From Entophlyctis helioformis (Eukaryota > Chytridiomycota > Chytridiomycetes > Chytridiales > Chytriomycetaceae), in assembly GCA_025526915.1 (NCBI GenBank), contig JAHLKH010000274.1, forward strand, positions 1 to 25,632: a DNA stretch of 25,632 nucleotides. The letters run 5' to 3'. This document shows positions 266 to 16,418 of the stretch, piece by piece. The number at the start of each line of letters is the position of its first letter. Within the stretch, counting starts at the first letter, position 1. The translations under genes and the position numbers were made by a program. Under the pieces are notes generated by a model. The model saw only the letters and a program-made list of their open reading frames with translations, had not been told where the DNA came from and did not search any database.

Positions 266-3200
266 TCACGTCCAATGCATCCCCAGCGTGGCGGCGGCTG
301 CGACGGACCGGCGGCTGTCTGGGAGGGCGGCGAGGTACTGGTCCAGCAGATCAGGTGCAGTCTCGCGCAACTCGGCCTCCGATCGGTACTCGTTGTGTTG
401 CGGGCCGTAACCGAGGTACGAGACCACAAAGGAGCGGCGGCCGTTGCGAGCGACCTTGTGTCCCACAATCGCGTCAATCTCCCATTCAGCTGCTGCAGGG
501 TCATCAGCAAAGGCGACTGCAGGTGGCTGAGCAGGCAGTGGCCGGCCAGGGAAAGCGGTGGCCGGATCGCGGTACGGCTTCAGAAGACGGACATGGAACC
601 ACGGATGCAGACGATGCATAGTCGGATGCAGAGCCAGCTTGCAGTTGAGACCATCCAGTGCGGCATTGACCTCTGTGATCGGGAATGGACCCAGCCAGTT
701 GGGCAGGAACGCGTTGGGGCGATGCGTGTCGGTGGGCCACACAATGCCGGCGGCTTGCAGCATGACCATGTCGCCGACAGCGTAGGCAGGAGCATCACGG
801 CGGTGGCGATCGGCGTTGCACTTCTGTCGTTCTTGAGCCTTGGTCAGGTTGGCTGTGGCATCCACGCGAGCCTTGTCAATGGCAGCGAGCAGGTCGTGGA
901 CAGCAGGCGGCGATGATGCTGCCGGCTCGTGTGGCAGCGTGCGAGGCTCGAGGCCAAAGGCGAGGAAGTACGGAGCATAGCCAGTCGATGCGCTTGGAGC
1001 AGAGTTGAGGGCGTGGACAGCCGCATCGAGCATGTGCTCCCAGTTGCTGCCGCGGTGGTTGGCGTACTTGGACAGCAGGTCCTTGAGCGTGCGGATGGTG
1101 CGTTCGGACTGGCCGTCGGTCTCCTGGTGGCGGGCCGTTGCCATGACTTGCTCAATGTCCAGCGCCGCACAGAGCGCCGTCCAGAAGGCAGACAGGAAGC
1201 GAGCGTCGCGGTCCGAGACGATAGACGACGGCAGGCCGTGGCCAGCAAGCACCCATCGGTTGAGGAACAGCGCGGCAAGATCCTCGGCAGTCGCATCGCG
1301 TCGCGTCGGCACGCACTTGACAAGCTTTGTCAGGCGATCCACAACAACAAACACAGCATCGTTGCCCTCGTCCGACATGGGCATGAAGGCAATGTCGCAC
1401 GCCACAGACTGGAAGCGGTCGGCAGGGATGGGCAGCGGGTGCAGCAGACCGGCAGGCGCCTGCGTCGACGAGTTGAACCGCTGGCAGGCGTCGCACGAGC
1501 TCACAAAGCGACCGACCGACGCAGCCATGTCTGGCCAGTAGTAGTGCGCACGCAGACGGCCGTATGTTCGTTCGCGGCCCTGGTGGCCGGCATGGGCCGG
1601 CTCGTGGTACGAGGTGAGCAGGTCGGTGCGCACTTGACCCTCTGGGATGTACATGCGACCCTCGTAGAACCATAGGCCGTCGACCAGCTCGAGTTTGGCT
1701 GCCAACTGACGCTCGTGCAGAGCAGCATCAGCAGGATCGGCCTTCCAGCGAGCGACGTCCAGCAGGAACGGATCGGCATCGAGCAGCGGGCGAACGCGGT
1801 CGGCAATGTCGGGTGTTGCGGTGGTCAAGGCATCCACTTCAACCTTTGCACGGCATCGAGCGCAGTGCGGGGCAACAGTCACATGGCGCGACAGCATGTC
1901 GGCAAGGTTGTTGTCGCCCCCCTGGATGTACTGGACCACAGCATCAAACTCCTGCAGCTCCATGATCCAGCGAGCCTGGCGGTACGACAGCTTGGGCTGC
2001 GTCGAGATCCATCGCAGCGAGGCATGGTCGGTGTGGATGGTGAAATGCACGCTGAGCAGGTAGTGCCGGTACTTGTCGCAGGTGTCCACGATCGCCAGCA
2101 TCTCGCGCTCGTGGGTCGGGTAGTTGCGTTCCGCATCATTGAGCTTGCGCGAGTAGAACGAGACCGGATGGATCTTGGCCGTGCCGTCCGCCTCGACATG
2201 CTTCTGGCCAATCCAGCCACCAATGGCAAACTCGGATGCGTCCGTGTACACGTGTGTCTCCAGCGACGGGTCAAAGTACTTGAGCACCGGAGCGTTCGTG
2301 ATGGCGTCCAGAATAAAGTCCACAATGGCCCACTTGGCCTCGTCCATCACAAAGGGCACGTCCTTGCGCAGCATGTCCGTGAGCGGCACACAGATGTCGG
2401 CATGGTCTTTGATGAAATCCTTGACCCACACGACTTGCCCAATGAAGCGCCGCAGATCGCCAACCGACCCAATGATCGGCCGAGTCTTCAGTGCCAGCCG
2501 ATGCTTGTCCTGGATCGAGTAGCCGTCACCCAGCAACAGATGACCGCAGAACTCGAGCCGCGACGAGAAGAACTCGCACTTGGACATCTTCAGGCGGAGC
2601 GATTCGGCGCGCAGACGACGGAACACTTCCTCCAGGTGCAGCAGGTGGTCCGCCTCGGTCTCCGAGTAGATCAGGATGTCGTCCATGTAGGCGACAACGC
2701 AGACGTCCAGCAGGTCGTGGAAGATGCGGTTCATCATGGCGTTGAAGGTGGCAGGAGCGTTGCAGAGCCCAAAAGGCATCACCTTGAACTCGTAGTGGCC
2801 GTAACGGGTCACAAACGCCGTCTTGGGGATGTCTTCGTCGTAGATGCGGATGTTGTAGTAGCCGTCCCGCAGATCGACCGACGACATGAACGGCTTGCCT
2901 GCGACGCGGTCAATGAGCGACTGGATACTGGGCATCGACGCGCGATCCTTGACCGTGATGTTGTTCAGCCCACGATAGTCGATGCACAGACGCAGACCGC
3001 CGTCCTTCTTCTTGGCGATCACGATACCCGCAGCAAATGGCGACACAGAGCCGCGGATCATGCCACGCGCGGCGAGGTCGTCCAAGAACGCCTTGACAGC
3101 ATCCTGGTGCTCAGTCGGCAGGCTGCGCGTAGGGCGGCGCGGCGGCGGCTTGGAACCAGGCACCAGCTTGATACGATGATCCTCAGGCCGCGACGGCGGC

Positions 3201-4024
3201 AGGTTGCCCGGTTGGAAGAGGGCCTGGAACTGGATCAACAGCGGATGGACAACCTCAGGCTGCGTCTCCAGGCTCAGATGGGCGAGTGGATCCGCCTCGT
3301 CAATCGCCGCAATGGCCGCGTCGGTTGCCGTATCTGCGTCCCCACAGCTGGTCAGGGCCATGATCTCGACATATGATGACTCGTCCGCATGGAAATCCTC
3401 GTAGCTGACGAACTCAATGCCGTGCTGCGCAGCAATGGCCTCAAGGGACATCGGAGCATGATCGCAGGGTGGTTCGGGTGCTGGTTCAGATGCTGTTTCG
3501 GGTACTGGTTCGGGTGCGGGTTCGGGTACTGGTTCGGGTGCTGGTTCGGGTGCTGGTTCGGATGCGGGTTTGGATGCGGGTTCGGGTACTGGTTCGGGTG
3601 TCGGGTCAAGTGTGGGTGCCGCTGAGGGGTGCAGACGCCATACAAAGTCGCGCCCCATGGCCTTGTGGTGGAATGCAAATGAGCGGTCGGCCATATCGCC
3701 CTTGGTGATCACCACCTCAGCAAACCACGGCGTACCCAGGATCACATCGGTGCTGATGTCCGCGACAAAGAACTGCAGCTGCTGCGCGTAGTCCCCAACC
3801 CCAAGAGTAATGGTCACCGCTTCCGCAACGCGATGGCACTCCTGGTTGGCATACTCGACCGTGAACGGCTCAATGGAGCAGGTCTGTGCACCAATCCGAC
3901 GCGCGAAACTGCGCGACATCACCATACCAGATGCGCCGGTGTCCAGCAGGGCCACGCACGGGAACCCATCGGCGGTTGCCATGACATGCGATCGGATAGG
4001 CGAGCGGACCGGCGGCATGGGCAA
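266..4024 (-). CDS. Gypsy Pol polyprotein: protease, RT, RNase H, integrase, chromodomain
   Basis: The 1252-codon open frame encodes the enzymes that copy the element RNA into DNA and integrate it. In order, with rough residues: aspartic protease motif LLDTGAS near 28; a proline/glutamate-rich repeat linker near 135-185; reverse transcriptase with YMDD near 445; RNase H YTDAS near 590; an integrase HHCC zinc finger near 810-850; the integrase core with SDRDARF near 930 and the TDGQSE glutamate near 970; and a chromodomain-like end near 1180-1230. The frame opens about 4073 with no obvious ATG of its own there, and 4024 is TTG; the first ATG is at 4018. It overlaps gag in the -1 frame, so expression by frameshift from gag is likely. 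No stop or frameshift breaks it, so it may be functional. Confidence 0.93.
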   Translation of the reverse strand: MPMPPVRSPIRSHVMATADGFPCVALLDTGASGMVMSRSFARRIGAQTCSIEPFTVEYANQECHRVAEAVTITLGVGDYAQQLQFFVADISTDVILGTPWFAEVVITKGDMADRSFAFHHKAMGRDFVWRLHPSAAPTLDPTPEPVPEPASKPASEPAPEPAPEPVPEPAPEPVPETASEPAPEPPCDHAPMSLEAIAAQHGIEFVSYEDFHADESSYVEIMALTSCGDADTATDAAIAAIDEADPLAHLSLETQPEVVHPLLIQFQALFQPGNLPPSRPEDHRIKLVPGSKPPPRRPTRSLPTEHQDAVKAFLDDLAARGMIRGSVSPFAAGIVIAKKKDGGLRLCIDYRGLNNITVKDRASMPSIQSLIDRVAGKPFMSSVDLRDGYYNIRIYDEDIPKTAFVTRYGHYEFKVMPFGLCNAPATFNAMMNRIFHDLLDVCVVAYMDDILIYSETEADHLLHLEEVFRRLRAESLRLKMSKCEFFSSRLEFCGHLLLGDGYSIQDKHRLALKTRPIIGSVGDLRRFIGQVVWVKDFIKDHADICVPLTDMLRKDVPFVMDEAKWAIVDFILDAITNAPVLKYFDPSLETHVYTDASEFAIGGWIGQKHVEADGTAKIHPVSFYSRKLNDAERNYPTHEREMLAIVDTCDKYRHYLLSVHFTIHTDHASLRWISTQPKLSYRQARWIMELQEFDAVVQYIQGGDNNLADMLSRHVTVAPHCARCRAKVEVDALTTATPDIADRVRPLLDADPFLLDVARWKADPADAALHERQLAAKLELVDGLWFYEGRMYIPEGQVRTDLLTSYHEPAHAGHQGRERTYGRLRAHYYWPDMAASVGRFVSSCDACQRFNSSTQAPAGLLHPLPIPADRFQSVACDIAFMPMSDEGNDAVFVVVDRLTKLVKCVPTRRDATAEDLAALFLNRWVLAGHGLPSSIVSDRDARFLSAFWTALCAALDIEQVMATARHQETDGQSERTIRTLKDLLSKYANHRGSNWEHMLDAAVHALNSAPSASTGYAPYFLAFGLEPRTLPHEPAASSPPAVHDLLAAIDKARVDATANLTKAQERQKCNADRHRRDAPAYAVGDMVMLQAAGIVWPTDTHRPNAFLPNWLGPFPITEVNAALDGLNCKLALHPTMHRLHPWFHVRLLKPYRDPATAFPGRPLPAQPPAVAFADDPAAAEWEIDAIVGHKVARNGRRSFVVSYLGYGPQHNEYRSEAELRETAPDLLDQYLAALPDSRRSVAAAATLGMHWT
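3470..3620 (-). repeat. Pro-Glu minisatellite in pol (PEPAPEPVPE-type linker)
   Basis: About a dozen imperfect 12-base units (plus strand ggttcgggtgct and variants) encode a Pro-Glu-Pro-Ala/Val repeat between protease and reverse transcriptase. It reads as a flexible linker. Tandem units like this often change copy number. Confidence 0.8.
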
Positions 4025-5580
4025 AGACGAGCAGTGGGTAACAGATGTATTGCAGCTGTTCCCGAACCATGATCACTAGGGGGTGCCACACTGGCGACTG
4101 CGACTGGTGCACCGCCACTGCGGTGGAATGGGCATGCCGGGTTCCTGATGGATGCGTGATCGGGTCGGCGGCAGGCGTAGCAGCCGTGGTTGGCCTTCAG
4201 GAACTCGCGGTCCGCCTCTGAGAGCGGTCGACCAACGCGCGACATCACCGCCTGCCACTCGCTGGCCAGGCCGGCGCTGTTTGCTGGGGCTGACACGGAT
4301 TGCGTCCTCGGCGCTGCTGGGATCGTCACTGGAGCCGGCGGCGTTCTGGCCGGTGCAGGAGCCGTCTGCGTGCGACGGCGTCCACTTCCAGAAGCCGATC
4401 CTGAGCCCACATTGGCAGATGGCGTCGACAGGGTGCCATTGAGTGCCGCGGCCGTCAAAACCGCCGCCTGGGCATACTCGGCCTTGGACCGCATGTTGGC
4501 GTCGAGCTTCTCGATCAGCTCCAGGTAGTCTGCAAACGTCTGTGGGCCGTCGAGACCGTCCGGACCCTCCAAGATGTCGATCCGAGCCTTCAGCTCCTGT
4601 GAGCACAGCGAGTACGCCTTCTTGATCATCGCGGCGTCCGAGGCGTCGGCGTCGCGTTGCAGGGCCGTGAGACGATCGCCCCACTGGGCACACGCCTCGC
4701 CAGGTGCGGGTACAAAACGATCGATGACGAGCTGTGCACGCTGGATGAGATGCGCCGGACGGTACCTGCGGTTGCCCACCTCAATGACCTGGGCCAATGA
4801 ACGCAGCTCTCGCGCCTGGACACGCGGCATCACAGTGTTGGAGAACCACTCTCGGGCAGAGCCCCTCAAGCAGCGTTCTAACATGCGAATGCGAACGGGT
4901 TCCTCCCTGTAGAGCGCCGGGCAAATGCCCATGCTGCTCTCCAGGGCGCGGGTGAATACTTTCCAGGCCCGGGCGTTGCCCAGCGGATCGGCCGCTGGGT
5001 CGCCGTCAAACCTGAGCTCCTTCAAGTCATTCTCGGCCTCCGTCTGCCGCGCGCGGAACAGCGCGGCATCGGAGGCTGCCGCTGGCGTCGGTAGATCCAT
5101 CGTGCCGTGCTGACTGATGCTGATGGATTGCGATCGCGACGGTGCGGGTGCTCGAGCCAGAGACGAGTGAGCAGCAAACGCCGCTGAGTTGAACTGGGCG
5201 CTTGAGGCGTGAACCGACTGCGAGCTTGCTACCGAGGCCGCCTCGTCCTGGATGGCAGAATCCCGATGTCCCAGCGCGGCGAGGAGCGACCCGTAATCCG
5301 CGACCGGTTGGATGTCTCCATCCTGCAGCAGGCTGCCGCCCTCAGGCACCGCGTCTCGCATCTCGGCCATCAACTCGGGTCTCTTCAAGAGCAGCCTCAT
5401 GGCCGCCTCTGCCAGGCTTGAGCCAAGGCGGTAGTTGGTGACAGTGCGGACGACAGTGACGGGTGTTGGCAGGCCGGTCTGGTTTTGCTGGTGTTGCTGG
5501 TGTTGCTGGTGTTGCTGTTCAATGCTGCTGTCTGCTCCGACCGCACCAGTGCCCTCGGCACTGAGGCTGTCGGTCGTCAT
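3919..5580 (-). CDS. Gypsy Gag (capsid and nucleocapsid)
   Basis: This 553-codon frame starts at an ATG 73 bases inside the 5' LTR. It should form the particle that packages the element RNA. Near residue 25 there is a glutamine/histidine run from a tgctggtgt-type repeat. The middle, roughly residues 190-370, has the helical, W/L/R-rich look of a retrotransposon capsid, including a segment reading ARAWKVFTRALESS. Near residue 467 is a nucleocapsid zinc knuckle, C-x2-C-x4-H followed by C after seven residues instead of the usual four. The frame runs on to 3919 and overlaps pol, which lies in the -1 frame. Codons after about 4073 may therefore be read only in unshifted product. Confidence 0.85.
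   Translation of the reverse strand: MTTDSLSAEGTGAVGADSSIEQQHQQHQQHQQNQTGLPTPVTVVRTVTNYRLGSSLAEAAMRLLLKRPELMAEMRDAVPEGGSLLQDGDIQPVADYGSLLAALGHRDSAIQDEAASVASSQSVHASSAQFNSAAFAAHSSLARAPAPSRSQSISISQHGTMDLPTPAAASDAALFRARQTEAENDLKELRFDGDPAADPLGNARAWKVFTRALESSMGICPALYREEPVRIRMLERCLRGSAREWFSNTVMPRVQARELRSLAQVIEVGNRRYRPAHLIQRAQLVIDRFVPAPGEACAQWGDRLTALQRDADASDAAMIKKAYSLCSQELKARIDILEGPDGLDGPQTFADYLELIEKLDANMRSKAEYAQAAVLTAAALNGTLSTPSANVGSGSASGSGRRRTQTAPAPARTPPAPVTIPAAPRTQSVSAPANSAGLASEWQAVMSRVGRPLSEADREFLKANHGCYACRRPDHASIRNPACPFHRSGGAPVAVASVAPPSDHGSGTAAIHLLPTARLCPCRRSARLSDRMSWQPPMGSRAWPCWTPAHLVW
5484..5520 (-). repeat. Poly-Gln/His trinucleotide-type repeat in gag
   Basis: The plus strand shows repeated tgctggtgt units. 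On the gag strand these encode alternating Gln-Gln-His near the Gag N-terminus. It is a low-complexity stretch without a known role. Confidence 0.7.
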
Positions 5581-5653
5581 TCCTTCCGTCTGGTCACTGA
5601 CTGTCTTGAGTCGTCGTGCAACAGGACGATGTGCAACGAGACGATGGGCGGTC

Positions 5654-5859
5654 TGACAGACGGCAGGTTTCAGTACACAAGGTCATTCATTGATATAGCT
5701 TCGTAGTAATAAAGGCATATGCACGGGCAGTACCTGACAGACGGCGGGTTTCAGTACACAAGGCGACGACTGGGGCAAGTCGCCTTGTGGTCTGTCAGGA
5801 TTCAAGTGGGACGCGCGACCGGTTGCACGCGTGTCACGTGATCGCGGCTGACTGTTACA
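5654..5859 (-). repeat. 5' LTR of the gypsy element
   Basis: The 206-bp repeat has TG...CA ends and is the near-identical partner of 1-204. Read on the minus strand it should carry the element promoter. It contains the same 29-bp duplicated unit (5654-5682 and 5735-5763) and the same hairpin (5733-5799). On the element strand the sequence after it begins GACCGCCC and does not show the TGG expected of a standard tRNA primer-binding site, so the exact inner boundary or the priming mode is uncertain. Confidence 0.88.
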
Positions 5860-5860
5860 G

Positions 5861-7286
5861 CGTTGTGCTGGCCCTCGCGGCAATCCTCGGTCTGCGGTTG
5901 CGACAGTTTGACGTCAACACTGCGTTCCTGCACGGCGATCTCAAGGAGGAGGTCTACACTCAGCAGCCGATGTGTAAGGATCGAGTCTGGGTCACGTGAT
6001 CGCCCATTGACACCAATCTGCCTTTCCTGCACGGAGTTTCCCCAGCTCTCCTCAACCATCTGTGCAGGTCTGTGCTTCCCCCAGTCCCCTTGGTAACCCA
6101 ATGAACTCAACCATCTGTGCAGTCTTATCTGCTACCGACTCTCTTCCCTTTCACAATGGGCTTCAACGACGGCACAGGTCGCATGTGGCGGTTGATCAAG
6201 AGTCTGTACGGTCTCCGCCAAGCGCCACTTGCCTGGAACGAGAAGTTTCACACCGCCATGGACGAGATGGGATACGCCTGCAGCGACATGGTGGACGCAT
6301 GCTGCTACATCAAGCGCCAGGACAAGGTGTTTGTGATCGTGGTCTTGTACGTCGATGATCTCCTGGTACTGACGGCCAACAACAAGATGTTTGCTCAGCT
6401 CAAGGAAGGTCTCGAGTCGCGGTTTGCCATGAAGGATCTCGGCGAGGCCCAGTCGTTCCTGGGCATGAAGATCGATCGCGACGAGGCCACGGGCAACTAC
6501 CACGTCTCCAACACCAAGGCCATCGAGAAGATGCTGGCTCGCGTGGGCATGCAGGACTGCAAGCCTGTTGGTACGCCGATGCCGACGTCTACTCTGGAGT
6601 TTGGTGGGCCCAAGACGTCGCAGCCGGTACGCGAGGTGATTGGCATGCTGTCACATCTGGCCAGGACCACGCACCCAGAGATCTCAGCCGCGGTTGGAAT
6701 TGTATCGCGGCATGTGTCGGAGCCTACGGAGCATCTCTGGACGCACATCAAGCGAATCCTCCGGTACCTGAAGGGCGTCAAGGACGCCTTCTTTGTCTTC
6801 AGCGGAGACTCGATCGAGCTGTCTGGGTTTGCCGACGCGGATTTCGCTGGAGACCTGGCGGATCGCAAGTCGACGTCTGGATGGACATTCTATGTGGGTC
6901 GGAGCTGTGTGAGCTGGAAGAGCGCCAAGCAGAAGTGCGTGTCACTGTCCACATACGAAGCAGAGACGGTGGCCATGTCGGATGCATGTAGGGAGCTGGT
7001 GTGGTTGCGGCGCATGCTGGAATGGCTGGGCTTCAAGCAGGATGGCCCGACGATACTGCGCAACGACAACTCCAGCTGCGTGACCAACACAAAGGGAATG
7101 CTCCGGCTGAAGTCGTCCAAACACATCGACATCCGAAATCTGTATGTGCGTGAGGTGGTCAAGTCGGGTGTGGCAAAGGTGGTACACATGGCGACCGAGG
7201 ACAATGTCGCAGACATCATGACGAAGCCGTTGGCGAAGGATACATTCAATCAGCACGCTGGAAGTCTGGGGATGGTGCTGAACTAG
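5861..7286 (+). pseudogene. Copia Pol fragment: reverse transcriptase and RNase H, disrupted
   Basis: The 5' piece (5861-5972) reads VVLALAAILGLRLRQFDVNT and continues with the copia reverse-transcriptase motif TAFLHGDLKEEVY. The 3' piece resumes at 6159 with GFNDGTGRMW, SLYGLRQAP and the catalytic YVDDL near 6349-6363. RNase H follows with FADADFAGD, DRKSTSG, ETVAMSDACREL, NDNSS, KHIDIR and MTKPL, ending at a stop at 7284-7286. The two pieces share a frame but are separated by 186 bases that bring an in-frame TGA at 5997. The gypsy insertion removes everything upstream. The order RT then RNase H at the 3' end agrees with Ty1/copia. The copy cannot be autonomous in its present state. Confidence 0.9.
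5973..6155. repeat. 183-bp insertion inside copia RT (possible solo LTR or small element)
   Basis: The insertion falls between QQP and GF of a conserved reverse-transcriptase block. It starts TGTAAGG, ends TTTCACA, and is flanked by ATG on both sides (5970-5972 and 6156-6158). With the repeat it is 186 bp, a multiple of three. The 17-mer ctcaaccatctgtgcag occurs twice inside (6051-6067 and 6106-6122). TG...CA ends suggest a solo LTR, but a 3-bp target duplication is shorter than usual for one. It is not a normal intron, since no AG lies at its 3' end. Confidence 0.5.
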
Positions 7287-7303
7287 AGGCAACAACGGCA
7301 TCT

Positions 7304-7312
7304 GAAGGGGAG
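7304..7312 (+). other. Polypurine tract of the copia element
   Basis: The purine run GAAGGGGAG touches the TGTTG start of the 3' LTR, 17 bases after the pol stop codon. This is the expected plus-strand primer position. Confidence 0.75.
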
Positions 7313-7439
7313 TGTTGCGGGGGCAGATTGGTTGTTGCAGTGGATGATGAAAGTGGAATTTGGATTGGAAATTTGTTTTAATACAACAAGAAAATACTGT
7401 CTCACAAGTCAGTCGCAGAACCAACGGCAAGAATCAACA
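7313..7439 (+). repeat. 3' LTR of the copia element (127 bp)
   Basis: The repeat starts TGTTG and ends CAACA, a perfect 5-bp terminal inverted repeat typical of copia LTRs, and follows a polypurine tract. It is AT-richer than its surroundings in the middle, with a TTTTAATACA stretch. The 5' partner is outside the window, so the boundary rests on these end motifs. Confidence 0.82.
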
Positions 7440-10400
7440 GGTGTGCTTCAAGACACAAGGACAACTGTGAGTTGAACTGCAGGCTTGTGATTGCAAGCAT
7501 CTTGTGCACATTCAAGATGCATGCCTAACATTACATTCAACCACGGCAGGATCCATACCTGGTCACGCCGGCCATGCAGGCTGAGCGTGATAAGGAGCGA
7601 GCTGAGCGAGCTGAGAAGGCCAAGACCAAGAAGTTCATCCAGGAGCACAAGAAGGATGCGAGCAGGCAAGCCCGCCAGGCTCAATTTGATGCCGAGACAC
7701 GGGCGTAAGTGGCATATGGCATGGCATGTGCCTTGAGTGTGTGTGCTGACCGGTGCGTTCTTTGACAGATATGAGCGTGGTGAAAGATCGGCGATAGAGC
7801 AGATGCTTGAAAAGATCCACCGCATGATGGCATTGCCAGTCATGACGGCTGCTGCTGCCATCCATGGCAATGAGGCAAGGCCGGTGGAGAGCACATACGA
7901 TCGCCCTGAGCAGATCGTCAAAATGGAGGTATGAGTTTGGATTGCCAGGTTGCTCTGCATGTCTGGCTTTGTGTATGTTGACTTGTGCTACACACAGGAA
8001 ATGCTCTCTGGAGATCCAATGCTTGCAAAGTATTTTGGACGCCAGGCCAAGACGGCGCCGGCAACACAGACCCGCGGTTCACTTTCAGAAAGCATCTTCA
8101 ATGGCGTGTACCGATACACGGCCGACGTGCGGCGTGCATGCATCACTATGATCGGCGCCATCGTCGAAGAGCTCGTCGCACTCGACCCATATACACCGCT
8201 GCCACTCAAGTTCTGCGTCATGGAGGCCAGGAGGAATGGTGAGATGGAGTATGTCTATATTGATCCTGATGACCTCAAGGACGAGAGCGCGTGGCTCTAC
8301 GCCGCTGGATGCGTCCTCAGATGGCCAGTTAATGCCCGGCGCATGTACGGCGAGGGCCCGCTCTGCAGCAACACCGACATTGCTCACTATGGCGACTTGG
8401 TGAGACTTGAGGCGGGCACAATGGTCAAGATCTGCACCTTCACCGACGACACAGCACCAGCAGTAGCAACAGCAGCACCAGCAGCAGTAGCCGCCGCATC
8501 CAGCAGCACCGATGCCCAACCACCAGCCATCGAGCCACCACTACAACGGGCAGTACCATCGGCAAATGATCTGCTCAAGGTGCTCACAAACAGCACCTCT
8601 AGTGGCGAGGGTGCTGTTAATATGCTTCTGTGATACCTGGGCTACATTCTCACCGGTCAGGAGTCGGTCATGCCGCGGGCGACAAAGCATGTGGCCCACT
8701 CGTGGATTGTGACCATCATGCAGATGATCATCAACCGCGAATGGACGCAGCAGATGATCCGGGACAGCATGACCAAGATGCGGGCTGGTGTGGCGCGGGC
8801 AGCCAAGATGAACGCGACGCAGGCCGGCTCATTGCTGTCAGCCATTGTGCACATGGACGCAAGCACGATGCATGCCGTTTTGCCTGGCAGGCTTGACGAC
8901 AGTTTGTGTGCAGCTGCTCGGAACGACATCTACAGCAACCTTGCACGGGGCATCTGTGGCATGCTTGCTGTGCACTTCATGACCCACCAGTCGATGCTCA
9001 TTGACTGGGCAATCCACCAACTGATTCCTGGTATATCTGCTGACAAGGTAGCGGAATTTGCCAAGGCAATGGATACAGCCACCGGGGACGCCACGTCTGG
9101 CATGCCACTGTCGACCAGACAAGACGGACGCGTTGTCGAGATCCCACAAGCACTGCACAGGCTCACGGCGGTCGTGCGCAACAAGTCGCTGTCAGAGGCC
9201 GGCCAGTTCAAGCAGTTGTGTGATCTCGCAGGCTCATCCCTCAAGTTGTGTCCGCAGCCTGCAGGCCGCGATCCGTTTGTCCTCATCACTGAGACCACCC
9301 TCTTTTGGGCGGTGATGAGGACAAAGGATGAGCGCATCCGTGGCAATCAGGATCCTGCTTTGCAGGCATTGAGACTACAGCTTCTGGCTGCACTTGGTTG
9401 GTCGCACTGCCTGTATATGCCATGTGTACACAATTTGATGCTGACACTGCACTTATCTCCAAGGCTATGAAGATGCCGAGTCAGCTCTTGAGTTGCCCAA
9501 CAAGGATATCAGGAAAGCATTCAGCGCAAGTCGCGAGGTTTGCATCTTTGGCATCCTTCTCCCAGGTCTCCGCCCCAAGAAAGGTCGCTTCCAGACACCT
9601 TCAGAAGCCAAAGATGAGATGGACGCGGTTGCCAAGGCCACAGCCAAGGCGACGCAAGAGGCTGATGAGCAGGGTCTGGATGGCAAGGAGCGCGAGGAGC
9701 ATATCAAGGCTGCGATTGATGCTGTGCGTCCAGCAAGACCAGCCAAGGCGATCCTACTTGGCAGCATCATGACGGATGGATACAGCATCTACCAGCTGGC
9801 ACTGGACTGCCGCACAAACCGTCCAGAGTCACCTTGGTGTATGTGGCGTGCTTGAATGCGATGGTGCACACATGGATTCTGACTGCCGCCTTGATCTGCA
9901 GACCCCAACGCGGCGTCCCCAGGCGAGCAGCCGTGGCTTGTTGACGAGGCTGATGGCGAGCCCGATTACATTAACGGCGAATGTGAGTTGCTGTGCCAAT
10001 CCAGACGAGCACTTGTTGTCCACATCAACTGACATGCCATCTATAGCCGCTAATCCAGCCGACCCGTCAGCCACCAAGCCATACACGCCCAATCCTGTAA
10101 GCCACTTGCATGCTAACCTCGCGCATTGGTGCACATACATTGCACATTCCTCACTCATGTCATGGCATGACAGGGCAAGCTCAGCTTCTACGCCTCGCAG
10201 CGACTGCGCAACATCCTCAAAGCCAACAAGCTGTTCACCAACAAGGGCTACCGGTTTGTGCGTATTGTCGGCATTGATTGGGGCAAGCGGTACCTGTATG
10301 GCGCGTCCAGCATGCTGGTCGATCTGGCAACTTTCACCTATACCCTCGAGTCCAACTACGTGCTCTCCTCTGGCATGTTTCAAGCTGAGCGTGACTTTCA

Positions 10401-11572
10401 GGACTGGTATGTATGCAATGACTCTGCCACGCGCACTTTTGACCAGATCAACTCACAGTGCCTGCCTCCTGTGCCAGGCTCAACAATCGATATGCCAAGG
10501 CAACCGACGTCCACGAGGTTATTGCATTCAAGACAGCAAAGCATGCCGATCCAGGCATTTCAGCAGGCGAGAGAGCCTTTTGGGATCTGCGCTGCCATGC
10601 GTACTGCACGCCATTCTTGAATGCACGGGTACGTTTTCTCTGATTCTGAATGTCCCATTGGCATGGCCGCCATACTGCTTGATCGCCATGCTGATTGCAC
10701 TGGACGGCTTGGCATGACATGGCATTCCACAGAAGGTCAAGGCCAAGTGGTTCACCAAGCGCAGCAACAGCACGTCTGATCGCGGAAACGCTCTTGAGGG
10801 CATCATGAAGCTGGCAGGATCGACCACTGGCAAGCGCGCACCTCGTGCATCTCAAGGCCGCTGTGACAAGCCAACAGAGAAGGACATTCCCGTTGTGTGG
10901 GCATTTGGCATCGACTTTACAGGTCAAGGTGGCCGGCACGCTGTGTTTGAGAAGTTTCTCATCAGGCATCTGCGGTCGTCTGGATATGCCTATGTGCGTC
11001 TGATGCCACGCTGTCCATCCATCCATCCATCCATCTGTGCACCAACTGACCACACGATCCTGCACACACACACACAGATCTACCGCTGCAATGAGAACCT
11101 GACCAGCCAGATGTGCCCGCAGTGCAAGCAGCGGATCCCATACGAGAACCGCACCAACCTGCGACGCTACGAGTGCACAGACTGCGATACCGTCTACCAC
11201 CGAGACGTGCTTGGAGCCACCAACATCGGAATGGTCGCACTGTGGCATCTGCTCTTTGGACACCGGCCGCTCTACTTGACACACACCAAAGCCGACAGCA
11301 ATCCAGCCATGCAAGCGCACCTCAACAGCATCGCGGCAATGCATATCTCCATCCAGCTGCGTGCAAGAAATGCTCCGCCTGTTGTCCCACAGCCTCAAAC
11401 GCGGAAACACTTCAAGTCGCATGTGGCCTCATGGGACCAGATCAGCCTGCCGTCCTGTGGCGTTCAAGACACGGTCCATCCGTCGTCCAGCAGCGACCAG
11501 CACGCAGACAGCCTGCCCTCAAGTCACCTGACCTACATCCCACACAGTGACTTGTTTGACTACCAACTTTGA
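7440..11572 (+). CDS. Fanzor (eukaryotic TnpB-like RNA-guided nuclease), intron-rich, 5' end interrupted
   Basis: Exons fitted by frame and splice sites: 7440-7466 (remnant), 7550-7704, 7769-7928, 7998-8579, 8661-9396, 9464-9838, 9902-9982, 10047-10096, 10174-10406, 10478-10628, 10733-10993 and 11078-11572. From the first ATG (7574) they give 1084 residues in one frame. Near the C-terminus are a RuvC-I motif VGIDWGKRYLYGA (Asp740), an AFGIDFTGQGG block, then NENLTSQMCPQC with a candidate catalytic Glu926, zinc-finger cysteines 933/936/953/956, and RuvC-III YHRDVLGATNIG (Asp963). This order is that of TnpB/Fanzor proteins, which cut DNA guided by an RNA encoded by the element. The long N-terminal part has a Lys/Glu-rich helix (first 60 residues) and an Ala/Pro/Ser-rich linker near 250-285; I recognise no other domain. 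The 8580-8660 intron is the least certain and removes an in-frame TGA. The ATG at 7574 is preceded by an apparent splice acceptor, so true 5' exons are probably missing. Confidence 0.85.
11014..11076 (+). repeat. (CATC)n and (CA)n microsatellites in the last Fanzor intron
   Basis: The 84-base intron 10994-11077 holds about five CATC units and a CA run that leads into its AG acceptor. The intron length is a multiple of three and lacks a stop, so unspliced transcript would stay in frame, inserting 28 residues just before the zinc finger. Confidence 0.75.
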
Positions 11573-11612
11573 ATCGGGGCACCTCCCGATCGACCTAACG
11601 GGTCACTTTTTC
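11573..11612 (+). ncRNA. Candidate guide-RNA hairpins directly after the Fanzor stop
   Basis: Right after the stop codon there is a perfect stem ATCGGG (11573-11578) with CCCGAT (11585-11590), then a second stem GACC (11592-11595) with GGTC (11601-11604), then a run of five T. In TnpB and Fanzor elements the guide RNA comes from the 3' end of the gene and the element end beyond it. Position and structure fit, but the stems are short and no second element copy is available to define the end. Confidence 0.3.
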
Positions 11613-11800
11613 TAACGATAAAGGTAAGACCCTCGTTGGATGTGCCTCGCCCGCTTGTCGTCGCATGCTCGTTGCTGACTCGAACCTTCCATCGTGTGAT
11701 ACGCGGGCATCTATTCGTTGCCTCTTGCGACGAATATAACTCCAAAATCCTTGGTAATTGTATGAATATTGGGCCGGGGAAAGCTTCGTTTGGCCATGTC

Positions 11801-12263
11801 AGCCTGCTTGAGCATCTGGTCAAGGAGCACGGCGTCGATCTCGGCCAGTACAAGGCAGCCAGGAGCGATGTTGGTGCTGTTGCCGATGCACAAGTCATGC
11901 AGATGCTGCGTGATGCCGGCAATGTCTCGTTCTGCAAGCCGGCCTTGTGAGTGGTATCGTCGTCGTCTCATATGCAGATGCAGTGCGGTGCTCGAGTTTC
12001 CAATACAGACATCAGCACAGGCCAAGCATGTAGTCCTTCAGGCCTGCAAAGCGACGGCATGTCATATCTGGCGAGTCTTGGCATGCCGAGCATGCCAGGC
12101 ATTGACGATCACTCGAGCACCACAATGGCCAGTCAGAAAGGCGCAATGGAGACGATCAGCGGACGGATGGATGGATGGATGGATGGCTGTCCCTTGCAGG
12201 CAAGCCATCTGCGACAGCCGCTTTGAGGACGCCACGAGCTGCCACGTTGCTCGCGCTGTGTGA
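11801..12263 (+). CDS. Unidentified two-exon gene fragment downstream of Fanzor
   Basis: An acceptor at 11800 (catgtcag) opens a frame reading LLEHLVKEHGVDLGQYKAA and on to NVSFCKPA at 11946. A good donor, GTGAGT at 11948, can join to an acceptor ending at 12202 (ccttgcag) and continue QAICDSRFEDATSCHVARAV to a TGA at 12261. The composition looks like coding sequence, but the intron would be about 255 bases, longer than others here. Without splicing the frame stops at 11948-11950. I recognise no family. It could be the 3' end of a gene split by the Fanzor element, or a degenerate relic. No upstream exon is evident between 11612 and 11800. Confidence 0.28.
12165..12186. repeat. (GGAT)n microsatellite
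   Basis: Five GGAT units stand in non-coding sequence. They are the reverse complement of the CATC tract inside the last Fanzor intron at 11014. Confidence 0.85.
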
Positions 12264-12557: not shown

Positions 12558-15020
12558 TTACTCCATAAAGTCCTCAATGGGACGGCCAGTGCACCAGAAG
12601 TCGATGGGGTAGGCGTTGAGGGCGGTGGTGACGGGAGGGTAGTAGATCGTGAGGACCGTGGCGAGGATGACGGCGATACCAGATCCGGCGTCGATGGCAG
12701 CGGCGAGCACGTAGTTGTACTTGGTCCACCAGGCGTGCGAGTACGTGAAGATGCCGTACATGAAGATGGTCGACACAATGGCCTGCGACGTGATCGACGA
12801 GAGCACAGAGCCAGAGCGGGCGGGGTAGGCCATGAGCGGGAAGTGGATGAAGCGCCAGTACGGGTGCGGGAACACCTTGTTGCCGAGCCACGGGAGGACG
12901 GGGAGGACGAGGCCGAGCAGGTAGCCGAGGTTGAGGCCAAAGTAAGGGCCCTCGGGGCCGAAGAAGCGGGCAGGGCCAATGGCACCCCAAATGGCACCGG
13001 CGTTGAAGAAGGTCGTGTGGCCGGGGTAGGTCCAGTCCTTGGTCTCGAGCGGGAAGTAGGCAATGACGATCCAGACGGCAGCGGTGTTGCAGAACGCGCC
13101 AACAACGGTACCCCACAGCTGCGAGAACACCATGTGGAGCGGGTTGATGTGCAGGTAGTGGCCGACCTTGAGATCAGCAGAGAGCGACAGGCACTGGATC
13201 ATGATGTTGTAGCCGTACGACTTGAACGACATGACAGGGACGGTCGAGCCGGGAGCAAGAAGACCCATGACAATCTGCGTGACAATGTTGAGGCCGAGCT
13301 GCTGGCCCGACGAGGCCTGGATGATGCCGTACGGGATCGTGAACACGAAGCCGAGAACGAGACCGAGGAGGGTGCCCCACCACTGGAGACGGAAGGGAGT
13401 GAACAGGCCGACCATCATCTGCACAGCGAGCCAGAAGCCGAGCCACGAGAGGTACATCCACTCGGGAATGTCGGGGTACGCCTTCATGAGCGTGTTGTGG
13501 ATGTCGGGGGTCTCCTCGTCGACCTGGTTGATCATCTCCTTGGTCTGGCGGACAATGTCCTTGTAGTACCACAGAGCAACGTGCGAGATACCGCAAGTGA
13601 GGGCAAGGAACGAGAGCGCGTACGTCATGGCAAAGTGCTCGGTGAGGTAGATGGGCTTGATCAGGTCGAACGCGGTCTGGTTGAGGTCAAAGTTGGAGCG
13701 GTCGTAGAAGGTCGTGGCGCGGAGCTGCTTGCCCTTGCGCGAGAACAGGGCAGGCGAGTTGGTGCGCGGGAAGGGAGTGTCGTCCGAGTACGTGTACACG
13801 GACTGGAGCTCGGTGGGGCGCTTGAACGCGTTGTTGTAGTACGCGAGGGGGACAATGATCCAGATGACCACAATGTTGGACACGAACACGTTCATGCTGG
13901 CCCACCACGGGACGGCGAGCACGTTGGTGCCGACAATCGTGGGGTCGAGCGACAGCGAGAACATGCCGACACCCATGTTGGGCGACGCAGAGCCGAGGTA
14001 GCGGACCGTCTTGCTGTTGGACATCCAGCACAGGATCGAGATGGCCTGCACGACACCGGCAAAGTACGACGGGAACCACTGCCACACAAAGGCAAACGAG
14101 AGCGCCAGCCAGAAGAAGGCGTAGCGAGAGAGACCGCCGGCCTTCTTGGACTCCTCAGACTCCTCCTCGGTCTTCTCGTGGAAGGCAACAAAGAGCGCGA
14201 CCGTGGGCAGGATCGTGGGCCAGTACATGGCAGCCGGGCGGACGAGGAAACGGCGGGTCATGCCGGCGAGACCGTAACCGATCATCTGGGTCGAGAACAC
14301 GAACAGGAGAGCGTTCCAGAAGGTGACGTTCTGGTCGTTCTGTTGGACGGGGACACAGAGCGGTGGTGGTGGAGTGGTAGTGGTGGAGTGGTTGTAGTGG
14401 CGGTGATGCACAGCAGACAGGCGAGTCAGTCACTGGTCCAAGAGCAGATGCAAGGCGAGCAGCGGCGGAATGCAATCCCGTCGTGGTGCACACCACAGCA
14501 CGGCACAACAACAGCACGGCACAGCATCCTGGTGCACACGACAACAGCAGCACCAAAGAGAACGCACCATGAACTTGGGGAACTTCTGGGCGACAACGTT
14601 CTCAATGCCGTACGGCTCACCACCAGCGGCACCGGCAATGATGTAGATGAGGACGTGCTCCTTGATGGTGAACGGGCCGGGGTTGAGGATGCCGCGGGGG
14701 AGCACCTTGGAGAAGAAGATACCCATCGGGTACGACAGCAGAGCGGCAACAACGTTGGTGATGGCGAACGAGTTGGTGCGGAACGAGAAGATGCCGTTGC
14801 AGAGACCGAGGAACACGGCAAAGATGGTGCCGAGGAGCACCATGCGGATGGTGAGCGACGGCGCAGCAGGGTCGTCGGTCTCGGGCACAATGCCCTTGGT
14901 GTACTGCTGGGCGTACACGGCGTCGATGGCCTCGATGTCGTCGGTCTGGGCCATGAGGGCCTTCTCGGCGTCAAGCTCGTGCTTGAGGTCGACCTTCTGG
15001 TCGGTCTTGGTGTCTGCCAT
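12558..15020 (-). CDS. OPT-family oligopeptide transporter
   Basis: Two exons, 15020-14568 and 14339-12558, are joined across a 228-base intron (GTGCGT...CAG) in phase 0 and give 744 residues. The family consists of proton-coupled plasma-membrane or vacuolar transporters that take up small peptides, glutathione or metal chelates. Seen in the sequence: a soluble N-terminal tail of about 55 residues; many hydrophobic helices from IRMVLLGTIFAVFLGLCNGI onward; the OPT signature LNPGPFTIKEH near residue 110-120; SYGYNIMIQ in the middle; and NKVFPHPYWRFIHFP near the C-terminus, in the position of the KIPPR-type motif. The length is normal for the family. The ATG is followed by an open, typical OPT N-terminus. 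The substrate cannot be told from the sequence. Confidence 0.93.
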
Positions 15021-16418
15021 GTCTAGAGGAAGCGGACGGGGATGGATTGGACGGAAGGGGCGGGGGCACGGCGAGCTATTTGAATGGCGACGGCTCTTGC
15101 CGCGCATAGCGCCGCATCGGCTGGTCTGTGTGCACCACCGGCTGCTCTGCTGCGCTGCTGCGCTGCTCTGCTGACTGTCCACGCGGTGTCACAGGCGAGC
15201 AAACTTGCGCAGCCACGCGGTGGTTTTCACGCCGCCGCGTGGATGGGCCACACGACACAGTGCAAATCCCACGCGGTGCAAAACTTGCCAAACAGTGCGC
15301 GCATCACACGGCCACGACCGCCGGATGTGCGCGCAACAGCGAGAGACCGTCGAGCGCCTCCAAAGAGCAGCGAGCCCATCAGCACCCAGCCAGGCGGATG
15401 TTGACGTGCAAAGTGTGCTGGCAAGCTGGCAAGCGCCACTCCCTTTGAGTGATGGCGGATCTTGTCATCGTCGTTCAACTGTGACGCACTGCTCGCCTGG
15501 CGTGTGGTACGCAGTTGGTGTTGGCTGGCTGGCCGGCTGGCTGGAGTGGAGTGGTGCACTCGCTGGCCTGACACTGTGGCGGCACTGGCGGTGGCAGCAG
15601 CGACAGCATCGCAGCGTGATAGCAGCCTGACAGGCTGGCAGCGTCACATCGCAGGCTGTCTGATGGCTCCATCCGATAGCGATTGCGCCGCCGCTCTCCT
15701 GTCCCCCTTTCCGGCCCCCTTTCCGGCCCCTTTCTGTCCCCCCTTCTGTCATTGCCCTTCTCCCGCGGCTCTTCCAGCGGCTCGCCGTGCGGCTCCTTCA
15801 CTTTGTTGTGCCTCGTGGCCAGCCAGCGTGGCCAGCCAGCGTGATCACCGCATGACACCGCCCAGCAATCTGACGCAGCATAACGGCAACTGGCGATCGT
15901 CTGCGCTCTCGCTCAAGCAGCTTGCGGGTCCCGTCCTGCTGCTGCCCAGCTGTCTTGCTGCCTCGCTGTCTTGCTGTGGGCTGTCCTGCTGCCTCGCTGC
16001 CTCGCTGCAACAGCGCTGCACTCGTCTGTGCCGAGATGCCGCTGGTGCACAGGCCTGCTGCTGTTGCTGGCGGGCAGCCACACTGACCAACTGCGCCGCT
16101 CGCTCTCTGCCAGTCTTTCGGCCAGTCAGCCTGCCCGTGCCTTGGTTGAACATGCCGCTGGTGCACTGGCCTGGTGCACGGCTCTGCTGCACGGCTCTGC
16201 TGCTCTCGTGGCCGCCTTCTCTCTCTCAGCTCTCCCTCTACTCGTCGCAGCCAACACCGGCCTCGCAGCAGCAGCAACAGCAGTCGCTGATGCCGCCACC
16301 GCCACCGCCACCTCCCTCTTGCCAACCGTCGCAGTGAGCAGCCAGACTGGCCAGAGCCGTGCGGGCTGGCCCACGCCGCCCTCTGCACTGCCCGGCTGAT
16401 GTAGCACATGGCGCTGGC
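15021..16418. other. Upstream region of OPT, low complexity, no firm gene
   Basis: This 1.4-kb stretch separates the OPT start codon from a doubtful small gene. Open frames exist on both strands but are rich in Trp/Cys/Ala/Ser and come from repeats such as ggccagccagcgt, ctgcctcgctgt and ccctttccggcc (near 15710-15740). None looks like a protein family. It presumably contains the OPT promoter on the minus strand. I see no clear TATA box. Confidence 0.5.

Follow-up and report, generated by a model that had tools for sequence, protein, structure and literature searches.

A terminal inverted repeat transposon of the chytrid Entophlyctis helioformis that probably joins a FEN/XPG-like module to a TnpB/Fanzor-like nuclease

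The available text of PMC3627910 describes Fanzor proteins with the motif D-X(125,275)-[TS][TS]-x2-C4-X(5,50)-RD, a Fanzor element present at about 150 copies in a red alga, and Mucor Fanzor elements with variable 5' parts. The available text of PMC10711439 gives DPG plus a rearranged Glu as the Fanzor fingerprint, with DPG nearly exclusive to Fanzors. It also describes a separate TnpB clade that has D-Phi-G with the rearranged Glu, and its search pattern places 120 to 160 residues (printed "120160") between RuvC-I and Ealt. Here we analyze a Fanzor-like element of Entophlyctis helioformis, a flagellated fungus (Chytridiomycota) with a 29.6-Mb assembly. The stretch of DNA that was analyzed, referred to as the window, is the entire contig C274 (25,632 bases), and one copy of the element begins within it at position 7440. 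Comparison of this copy with its paralogs suggests that the element is a terminal inverted repeat (TIR) transposon that probably encodes both a FEN/XPG-like module and a TnpB/Fanzor-like RuvC-TNB region in one protein. The original prediction, made from the letters of the window, had described a large, intron-rich Fanzor gene with its key residues present; the FEN-like module, the element with its TIRs and target site duplications (TSDs), and the copy number were outside its view.

Three-frame reading and paralog comparison placed ten GT-AG introns of 63 to 104 nt between positions 7467 and 11077, in agreement with the earlier estimate of at least ten. The same ten introns have GT and AG ends in the seven subfamily copies that align with the window (C30, C129, C150, C69, C10, C18, and C43). 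The spliced coding sequence from 7440 to 11572 consists of eleven exons totaling 3,387 nt, a multiple of three, which corresponds to 1,128 codons plus a stop. The features of the window copy are as follows.

7440 to 11775, plus strand: element fragment, from the edge of a long terminal repeat (LTR) to the right end, by blastn against 20 paralogous loci
7440 to 7466, plus strand: window exon 1, partial, the 8th exon of the full gene
7550 to 7704, plus strand: window exon 2
7769 to 7928, plus strand: window exon 3
7998 to 9396, plus strand: window exon 4, which contains an in-frame TGA
8631 to 8633, plus strand: the in-frame TGA, a sense codon in alignable paralogs
9464 to 9838, plus strand: window exon 5
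9902 to 9982, plus strand: window exon 6
10047 to 10096, plus strand: window exon 7
10174 to 10406, plus strand: window exon 8, with RuvC-I (Asp codon of DWG at 10276 to 10278)
10478 to 10628, plus strand: window exon 9
10733 to 10993, plus strand: window exon 10, with the RuvC-II strand VVWAFGIDF, the strand being placed by motif
11078 to 11572, plus strand: window exon 11, with the rearranged Glu (11093 to 11095), the four-cysteine (C4) zinc finger (11114 to 11185), the RuvC-III Asp (11204 to 11206), and the stop (PF07282, E value 1.4e-10)
11573 to 11775, plus strand: 3' noncoding region to the element end, a candidate omega/reRNA scaffold, from a 25-copy alignment
11753 to 11775, minus strand: right TIR, whose family form shares 19 of 23 positions with the left end of full copies
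7313 to 7439, plus strand: 3' LTR of an element judged by eye to be of copia type (16 matches), which interrupts the Fanzor-like element

The C-terminal half of the gene has the catalytic order of TnpB/Fanzor nucleases, as had been proposed. The window copy exceeded the cutoff of Pfam Cas12f1-like_TNB (41.6 versus 26.3 bits). Its best NCBIfam match was guided_TnpB, a model that matched all seven family members (best E value, 1.2e-7) at scores below the curated cutoff (29.8 of 100 bits for the window copy). The Asp of GIDWGK, the Glu, and the RuvC-III Asp lie at the codons originally assigned to them (10276, 11093, and 11204), and the TS-x2-C-x2-C...C-x2-C segment spans 11102 to 11185. The D-W-G, the rearranged Glu, the four Cys, and the Asp of RD do not vary among the 25 copies. 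In the window copy 188 residues separate the Asp from TS, and five residues follow the C4 motif before RD, a layout that fits the published Fanzor pattern; the Asp-to-TS distance was 188 to 191 in the eight copies, of ten, in which the script located the motifs. In the window copy, the first zinc Cys follows the Glu after six intervening residues, and the two positions align in all 25 copies. In canonical TnpB proteins a Glu lies about 50 residues upstream of the zinc finger; in this family, the Asp of AFGID (39 residues upstream) and a Glu 51 residues upstream are both invariant, and the latter precedes the strand as judged by motif. The ratio of nonsynonymous to synonymous polymorphism (pN/pS) was 0.31 over TNB/RuvC-III and 0.50 to 0.53 over window exons 8 to 10, compared with 0.83 over window exons 6 and 7 and 0.88 over the C-terminal tail.

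Designation of the gene as a Fanzor is appropriate in part. The motif pattern, the rearranged Glu, and the location within a transposon favor it, but RuvC-I is DWG rather than DPG in all 25 copies, and the 183 residues between DWG and the Glu in the window copy fall outside the published range. Because of the DWG, we refer to the family as Fanzor-like rather than as a textbook Fanzor. The family may have arisen by a separate capture of a TnpB, or it may be a Fanzor that has diverged. A profile search of the PDB with the RuvC core gave weak matches only, including LaTranC (E value, 0.55).

Other copies have further exons to the left of position 7440, in phase with the first exon of the window. 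In our preferred model, which is based on sequence comparison, the full gene would be one gene of 18 exons and 17 introns with about 1,780 codons, so that its early description as large and intron rich was an understatement. The first four exons encode a module with an MGV/MGI start followed by HVD, HVDG, EAD, DSD/DTD, and NDY-type acids. FEN1/XPG nucleases have seven metal-binding acids in a set order. All seven were found in order (D56, D106, E193, D195, D216, D218, and D276, numbered as in the C10 module), with the first four conserved in all four full modules and the last three in seven of seven. The MGV/MGI start is present in three of the four full modules as aligned. With a custom spliced aligner the module was found at eight of ten loci tried. 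It was full or nearly full, with no frameshift, in C10, C18, C22, C63, and C15 (where the match contains a single stop, at its far end) and partial, within the sequence examined, in C125, C88, and C102; no credible match was found in the sequence examined for C24 and C239.

Whether this module is a FEN/XPG-like nuclease is a separate question. Pfam XPG_I_2 matched the EAD-DSD stretch of all four full modules (E values of 2.9e-4, 0.0023, 0.017, and 0.27). Several results weigh against the assignment. The best XPG_I_2 score, 20.9 bits, is below the cutoff of 24.2, and for the C10 module XPG_I_2 ranks third, with FAD_binding_4 ahead of it at 0.037. Profile-profile comparison with five archaeal FEN1s gave no match, and the PDB yielded neither a sequence match nor a relevant profile match. 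Two AlphaFold models, one built from three sequences, were not interpretable (pLDDT of 33 for that model and 49.5 for the second). These results would be expected if the N-terminal module were an unrelated or dead domain and the element a divergent, large Fanzor. We regard this explanation as improbable because the seven acids keep their order across modules that are only 32 to 61% identical to the first module, because XPG_I_2 is the top Pfam match in three of the four full modules, and because the module is under purifying selection. The ratio of nonsynonymous to synonymous substitution rates (dN/dS) was 0.19 to 0.35 over residues 48 to 360 in the eight of ten pairs for which it was computable, and synonymous changes approached saturation between distant families. 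A FEN fold is predicted for the module.

The case for a single protein depends on the stretch that joins the two halves. From the end of the FEN-like module into the Fanzor part, copies C22, C26, and C172 have no frameshifts and no stops after splicing, which is why a single 18-exon gene is preferred. These three copies are about 35% diverged from the subfamily of the window and have an additional 97-nt intron in the joining region. However, the remaining 11 of the 14 copies, among them all six subfamily A copies tested, have one or more frameshifts or stops in the joining stretch, and among the copies examined none is demonstrably intact from end to end. Some of the joining-stretch frameshifts and stops are perhaps alignment errors at low identity. 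Furthermore, the public gene model P0011 (397 amino acids), which joins exons 1 to 4 in the same way as our comparison-based model, then uses another splice acceptor and stops in exon 5. It is conceivable that two unfused genes travel together, one for a FEN-like protein resembling P0011 and the other for a Fanzor that starts downstream. This arrangement seems unlikely to us, given the three clean copies and the fact that the protein encoded by the joining stretch is 33 to 66% identical in eight copies outside subfamily A, with introns that mostly match. A 1,297-codon open frame in C10 was dropped as proof of a single reading frame, as the 97-nt intron lies inside exon 5 as first drawn and C10 has a frameshift. 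We continue to favor one gene, the single mRNA of which would encode both nuclease-like halves.

The gene is carried by a mobile element with defined boundaries. Similarity among copies stopped at positions equivalent to 11772 to 11778 of the window in 20 of 20 loci (blastn), and the flanks differ beyond that point, except for those of C14 and C125. Fuller copies extend about 2.9 kb to the left of position 7440: subfamily copies C10, C43, C67, C129, C150, and C166 are 7.2 to 7.4 kb, the copy in C22 spans about 8.0 kb, and further copies are longer, some of them carrying nested insertions. The left end, GGCCCGGTTCTCATACCATTACC, matches the reverse complement of the right end at 19 of 23 positions, forming a 23-bp imperfect TIR. 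TSDs were scored at the 16 loci for which both flanks were read (the right ends of C186, C342, and C5 were unread). Six of these loci have duplications matching at 8 of 8 bases (C12, C63, C13, C272, C7, and C395), with the C272 match one base off the junction and the first element bases altered in C7, C395, and C272. Matches were partial in C30 (7 of 8) and in C22 and C69 (6 of 8). The remaining seven loci (C67, C166, C1, C129, C150, C10, and C43) have no TSD (5 of 8 bases or fewer), an observation that counts against the favored model.

A search for other copies, as the original prediction had proposed, gave 140 matches to the last exon at 123 or more loci on 100 contigs of the E. helioformis genome; the best 137 of 547 candidates were scored, and the locus count is a lower bound. 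TGA codons in these tblastn matches were uncounted and may largely reflect reading through the last intron. Searches with the right end gave 40 matches (best 40 of 208 candidates scored) and with the left end 63, several of which are repeats inside one end (best 40 of 117 candidates scored). Left ends, such as those of L029 and L034 (near position 249), have short tandem repeats of about 28 to 31 bp just inside the end that contain GATTGGTC, an inverted CCAAT. Since PMC3627910, in its available text, reports both high copy number and 5' variation for Fanzor elements, these properties are not new in themselves.

Some copies share only one flank. C129, C150, and C67 have common left flanks (for more than 3 kb in C129 and C150), whereas C10 and C166, like C14 and C125, have common right flanks; the opposite flank differs or was uncompared, as if halves had been swapped. 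One-ended, Helitron-like transposition, as in Chlamydomonas, was considered and then dropped once TIRs and TSDs had been seen, which leaves these one-flank-sharing copies unexplained.

TIRs and 8-bp TSDs would also be in keeping with the TnpB-like zinc-ribbon/RNase H protein being the DDE-type transposase of the element, and not an RNA-guided nuclease. No other transposase was found in the exons scanned with Pfam, and most of the TnpB match comes from the TNB/RuvC-III stretch. Nevertheless, such a role appears very improbable, because guided_TnpB is the best NCBIfam match of the window copy and is found in all seven members, and because the D-x(188-191)-TS-x2-C4-RD layout and the rearranged Glu are Fanzor-like.

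If the RuvC half is RNA guided, as it probably is, the 3' end of the element is a candidate source of the RNA. Its last 210 nt (203 after the stop) have a mean identity of 83% over 25 copies. In the RNAalifold structure 97.9% of cells are paired, compared with 35 to 47% when the structure is slid along the alignment, and four pairs have changed on both sides, in 12 cells (shuffle mean, 4.3; 0 of 500 shuffles as high). Yet covariation is slight, and the number of pair types is unremarkable, having been reached by 83 of 500 shuffles. These data give weak support for a functional RNA, as the alignment on which they rest is also the one from which the structure was folded. An Rfam scan gave one chance match elsewhere (E value, 1.7). 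Judged from the alignment, the 3' end is a possible source of a structured RNA, an omega/reRNA candidate. On the minus strand at 11677 to 11686, GGTTCGAGTC, kept in 23 of 25 copies, resembles the tRNA B box consensus; it could mark an RNA polymerase III promoter or be a chance resemblance.

The mode of action that we consider most likely is the following. An N-terminal FEN1/XPG-like (PIN-like) structure-specific nuclease would be connected through a long linker to a C-terminal RuvC-TNB nuclease with a rearranged Glu. RNA from the 3' end of the element, with a guide taken from the flank, would load the RuvC half, which would then open and cut matching sites, chiefly empty donor sites, and repair of the cut site would copy the element back. 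At the edge of the R-loop, the FEN/XPG half would trim flaps or the displaced strand. A more ambitious proposal is that the protein is a self-sufficient RNA-guided two-nuclease transposition enzyme that needs no conventional transposase and forms a third TnpB-derived lineage in eukaryotes, in addition to Fanzor1 and Fanzor2. The RuvC half would then open a guide-directed R-loop, the XPG/FEN-like half would cut the displaced strand or flap, and the element would both spread and restore itself. We consider this proposal doubtful.

The copy in the window is a broken, dead fragment of a DNA transposon that is present in many copies. Position 7440 is not a gene start, and the frame is not open. The left part of the element is missing because the copia-type 3' LTR abuts position 7440, in the middle of an exon, and exons 1 to part of 8 are off the contig. 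Copies of this LTR are paired about 5 kb apart on C254, C71, C72, and C52. The TGA at 8631 to 8633 is a sense codon in 12 of 12 paralogs alignable at the DNA level (the other 12 of 24 copies are unaligned there), and therefore this stretch is coding. An intron spanning the TGA was ruled out on the same grounds. Nine GT-AG spans of 45 to 120 nt, each a multiple of three, could formally excise it, and 0 of 9 have a GTAA, GTAG, GTAT, or GTGA donor. The designation of candidate RNA-guided nuclease, which is inapplicable to this copy with its TGA and missing 5' exons, may still fit the family.

The 3' half of the family has a mosaic pattern of diversity. Over positions 9839 to 11077 in 25 copies, nucleotide diversity in the six pooled introns was 0.069, compared with 0.119 for the exons between them (0.143 at third codon positions); with CpG columns removed the values were 0.055 and 0.091. 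Window exon 10 is an exception, with a diversity of 0.072 that is within the intron range. The last exon (0.158) and the 3' region (0.118) were excluded from this comparison. All four combinations of variants were present at 11,982 of 14,196 two-state site pairs, so that variants assort as mosaics. This pattern probably reflects recombination or gene conversion between families.

Elsewhere in the window, an LTR retrotransposon gag-pol (266 to 5682, minus strand; Ty3/gypsy type by motifs, assigned by eye) adjoins the copia-type fragment at 5694 to 7439 (type also by eye), indicating nested insertions. Past the right flank of the element, a long spliced frame at 12558 to 15188 on the minus strand is, by eye, like an oligopeptide transporter.

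Relatives outside this genome were sought among proteins divided by size class, an approach that a full-length fusion in another species could escape. None of 5,126 candidates of about 620 to 1,974 amino acids matched a single Fanzor core sequence at an E value of 0.001 or less. A Fanzor core profile gave ten matches at 0.01 or less among proteins of about 156 to 497 amino acids, and a FEN-module profile gave three at 1 or less among those of about 212 to 674 amino acids (7,997 candidates scored in each case); all of the matches were from E. helioformis. Pattern scans of IMG/VR (15 matches) and of 84,980 bacterial and archaeal species genomes in GTDB (28 matches) gave no confirmed relatives, and tblastn against phages returned three records (best E value, 0.03). 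In the literature searched, with most subscription papers outside its scope, we found no account of a Fanzor with an XPG or PIN domain, no TnpB-XPG fusion, and no XPG-like DNA transposon with TIRs; titles on FEN1/XPG with fungal transposons included nothing related. In the available text of PMC11071296, two viral contigs are said to contain "Fanzor flap endonuclease homologs"; no fusion is described there. The public proteins found for the family are all "hypothetical" pieces of 168 to 397 amino acids, which makes genes of this kind easy to miss.

A genuine fusion would, within the reach of these searches, be a new TnpB/Fanzor-like architecture, a guided cutter tied to a structure-specific nuclease and maintained by purifying selection in an element family that is present in many copies in one genome. 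The TnpB-derived repertoire would then include more than the DPG-type Fanzors, and the contribution of a eukaryotic guided nuclease to the persistence of a TIR transposon could be tested directly.

The closest described systems are Fanzor1 and Fanzor2, exemplified by SPu-1 and its protein SPu-1-1p from Spizellomyces punctatus. Like them, the family described here is a eukaryotic transposon gene in a chytrid host, with D-x(188)-TS-x2-C4-RD, a Glu six residues upstream of the first zinc Cys, and a candidate RNA at the 3' end. It differs in having DWG instead of DPG and 183 residues from DWG to Glu instead of the 120 to 160 in the published pattern, in having about 1,780 codons with a FEN-like N terminus whereas SPu-1-1p has 633 amino acids, and, according to the available description of SPu-1, in generating an 8-bp TSD instead of TA. 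The D-Phi-G TnpB clade, as far as the accessible portion of PMC10711439 describes it, has D-Phi-G, the rearranged Glu, C4, and RD in common with the family, which in contrast is eukaryotic, spliced, joined to a second domain, and marked by the invariant AFGID Asp. FEN1/XPG and XPG_I_2 nucleases have the MG(V/I) start and the HVD, HVDG, EAD, DSD/DTD, and NDY-type acids in the same order as the N-terminal module, whereas the module scores below the Pfam cutoff, is unmatched to the five archaeal FEN1s, and is transposon borne and RuvC joined. MCi-2 of Mucor circinelloides, as presented in the available text of PMC3627910, likewise combines a homogeneous 3' part that includes the Fanzor with differing 5' parts; MCi-2 has 11- to 12-bp TSDs and no recognizable TIR, whereas the E. 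helioformis family has 8-bp TSDs and a TIR.

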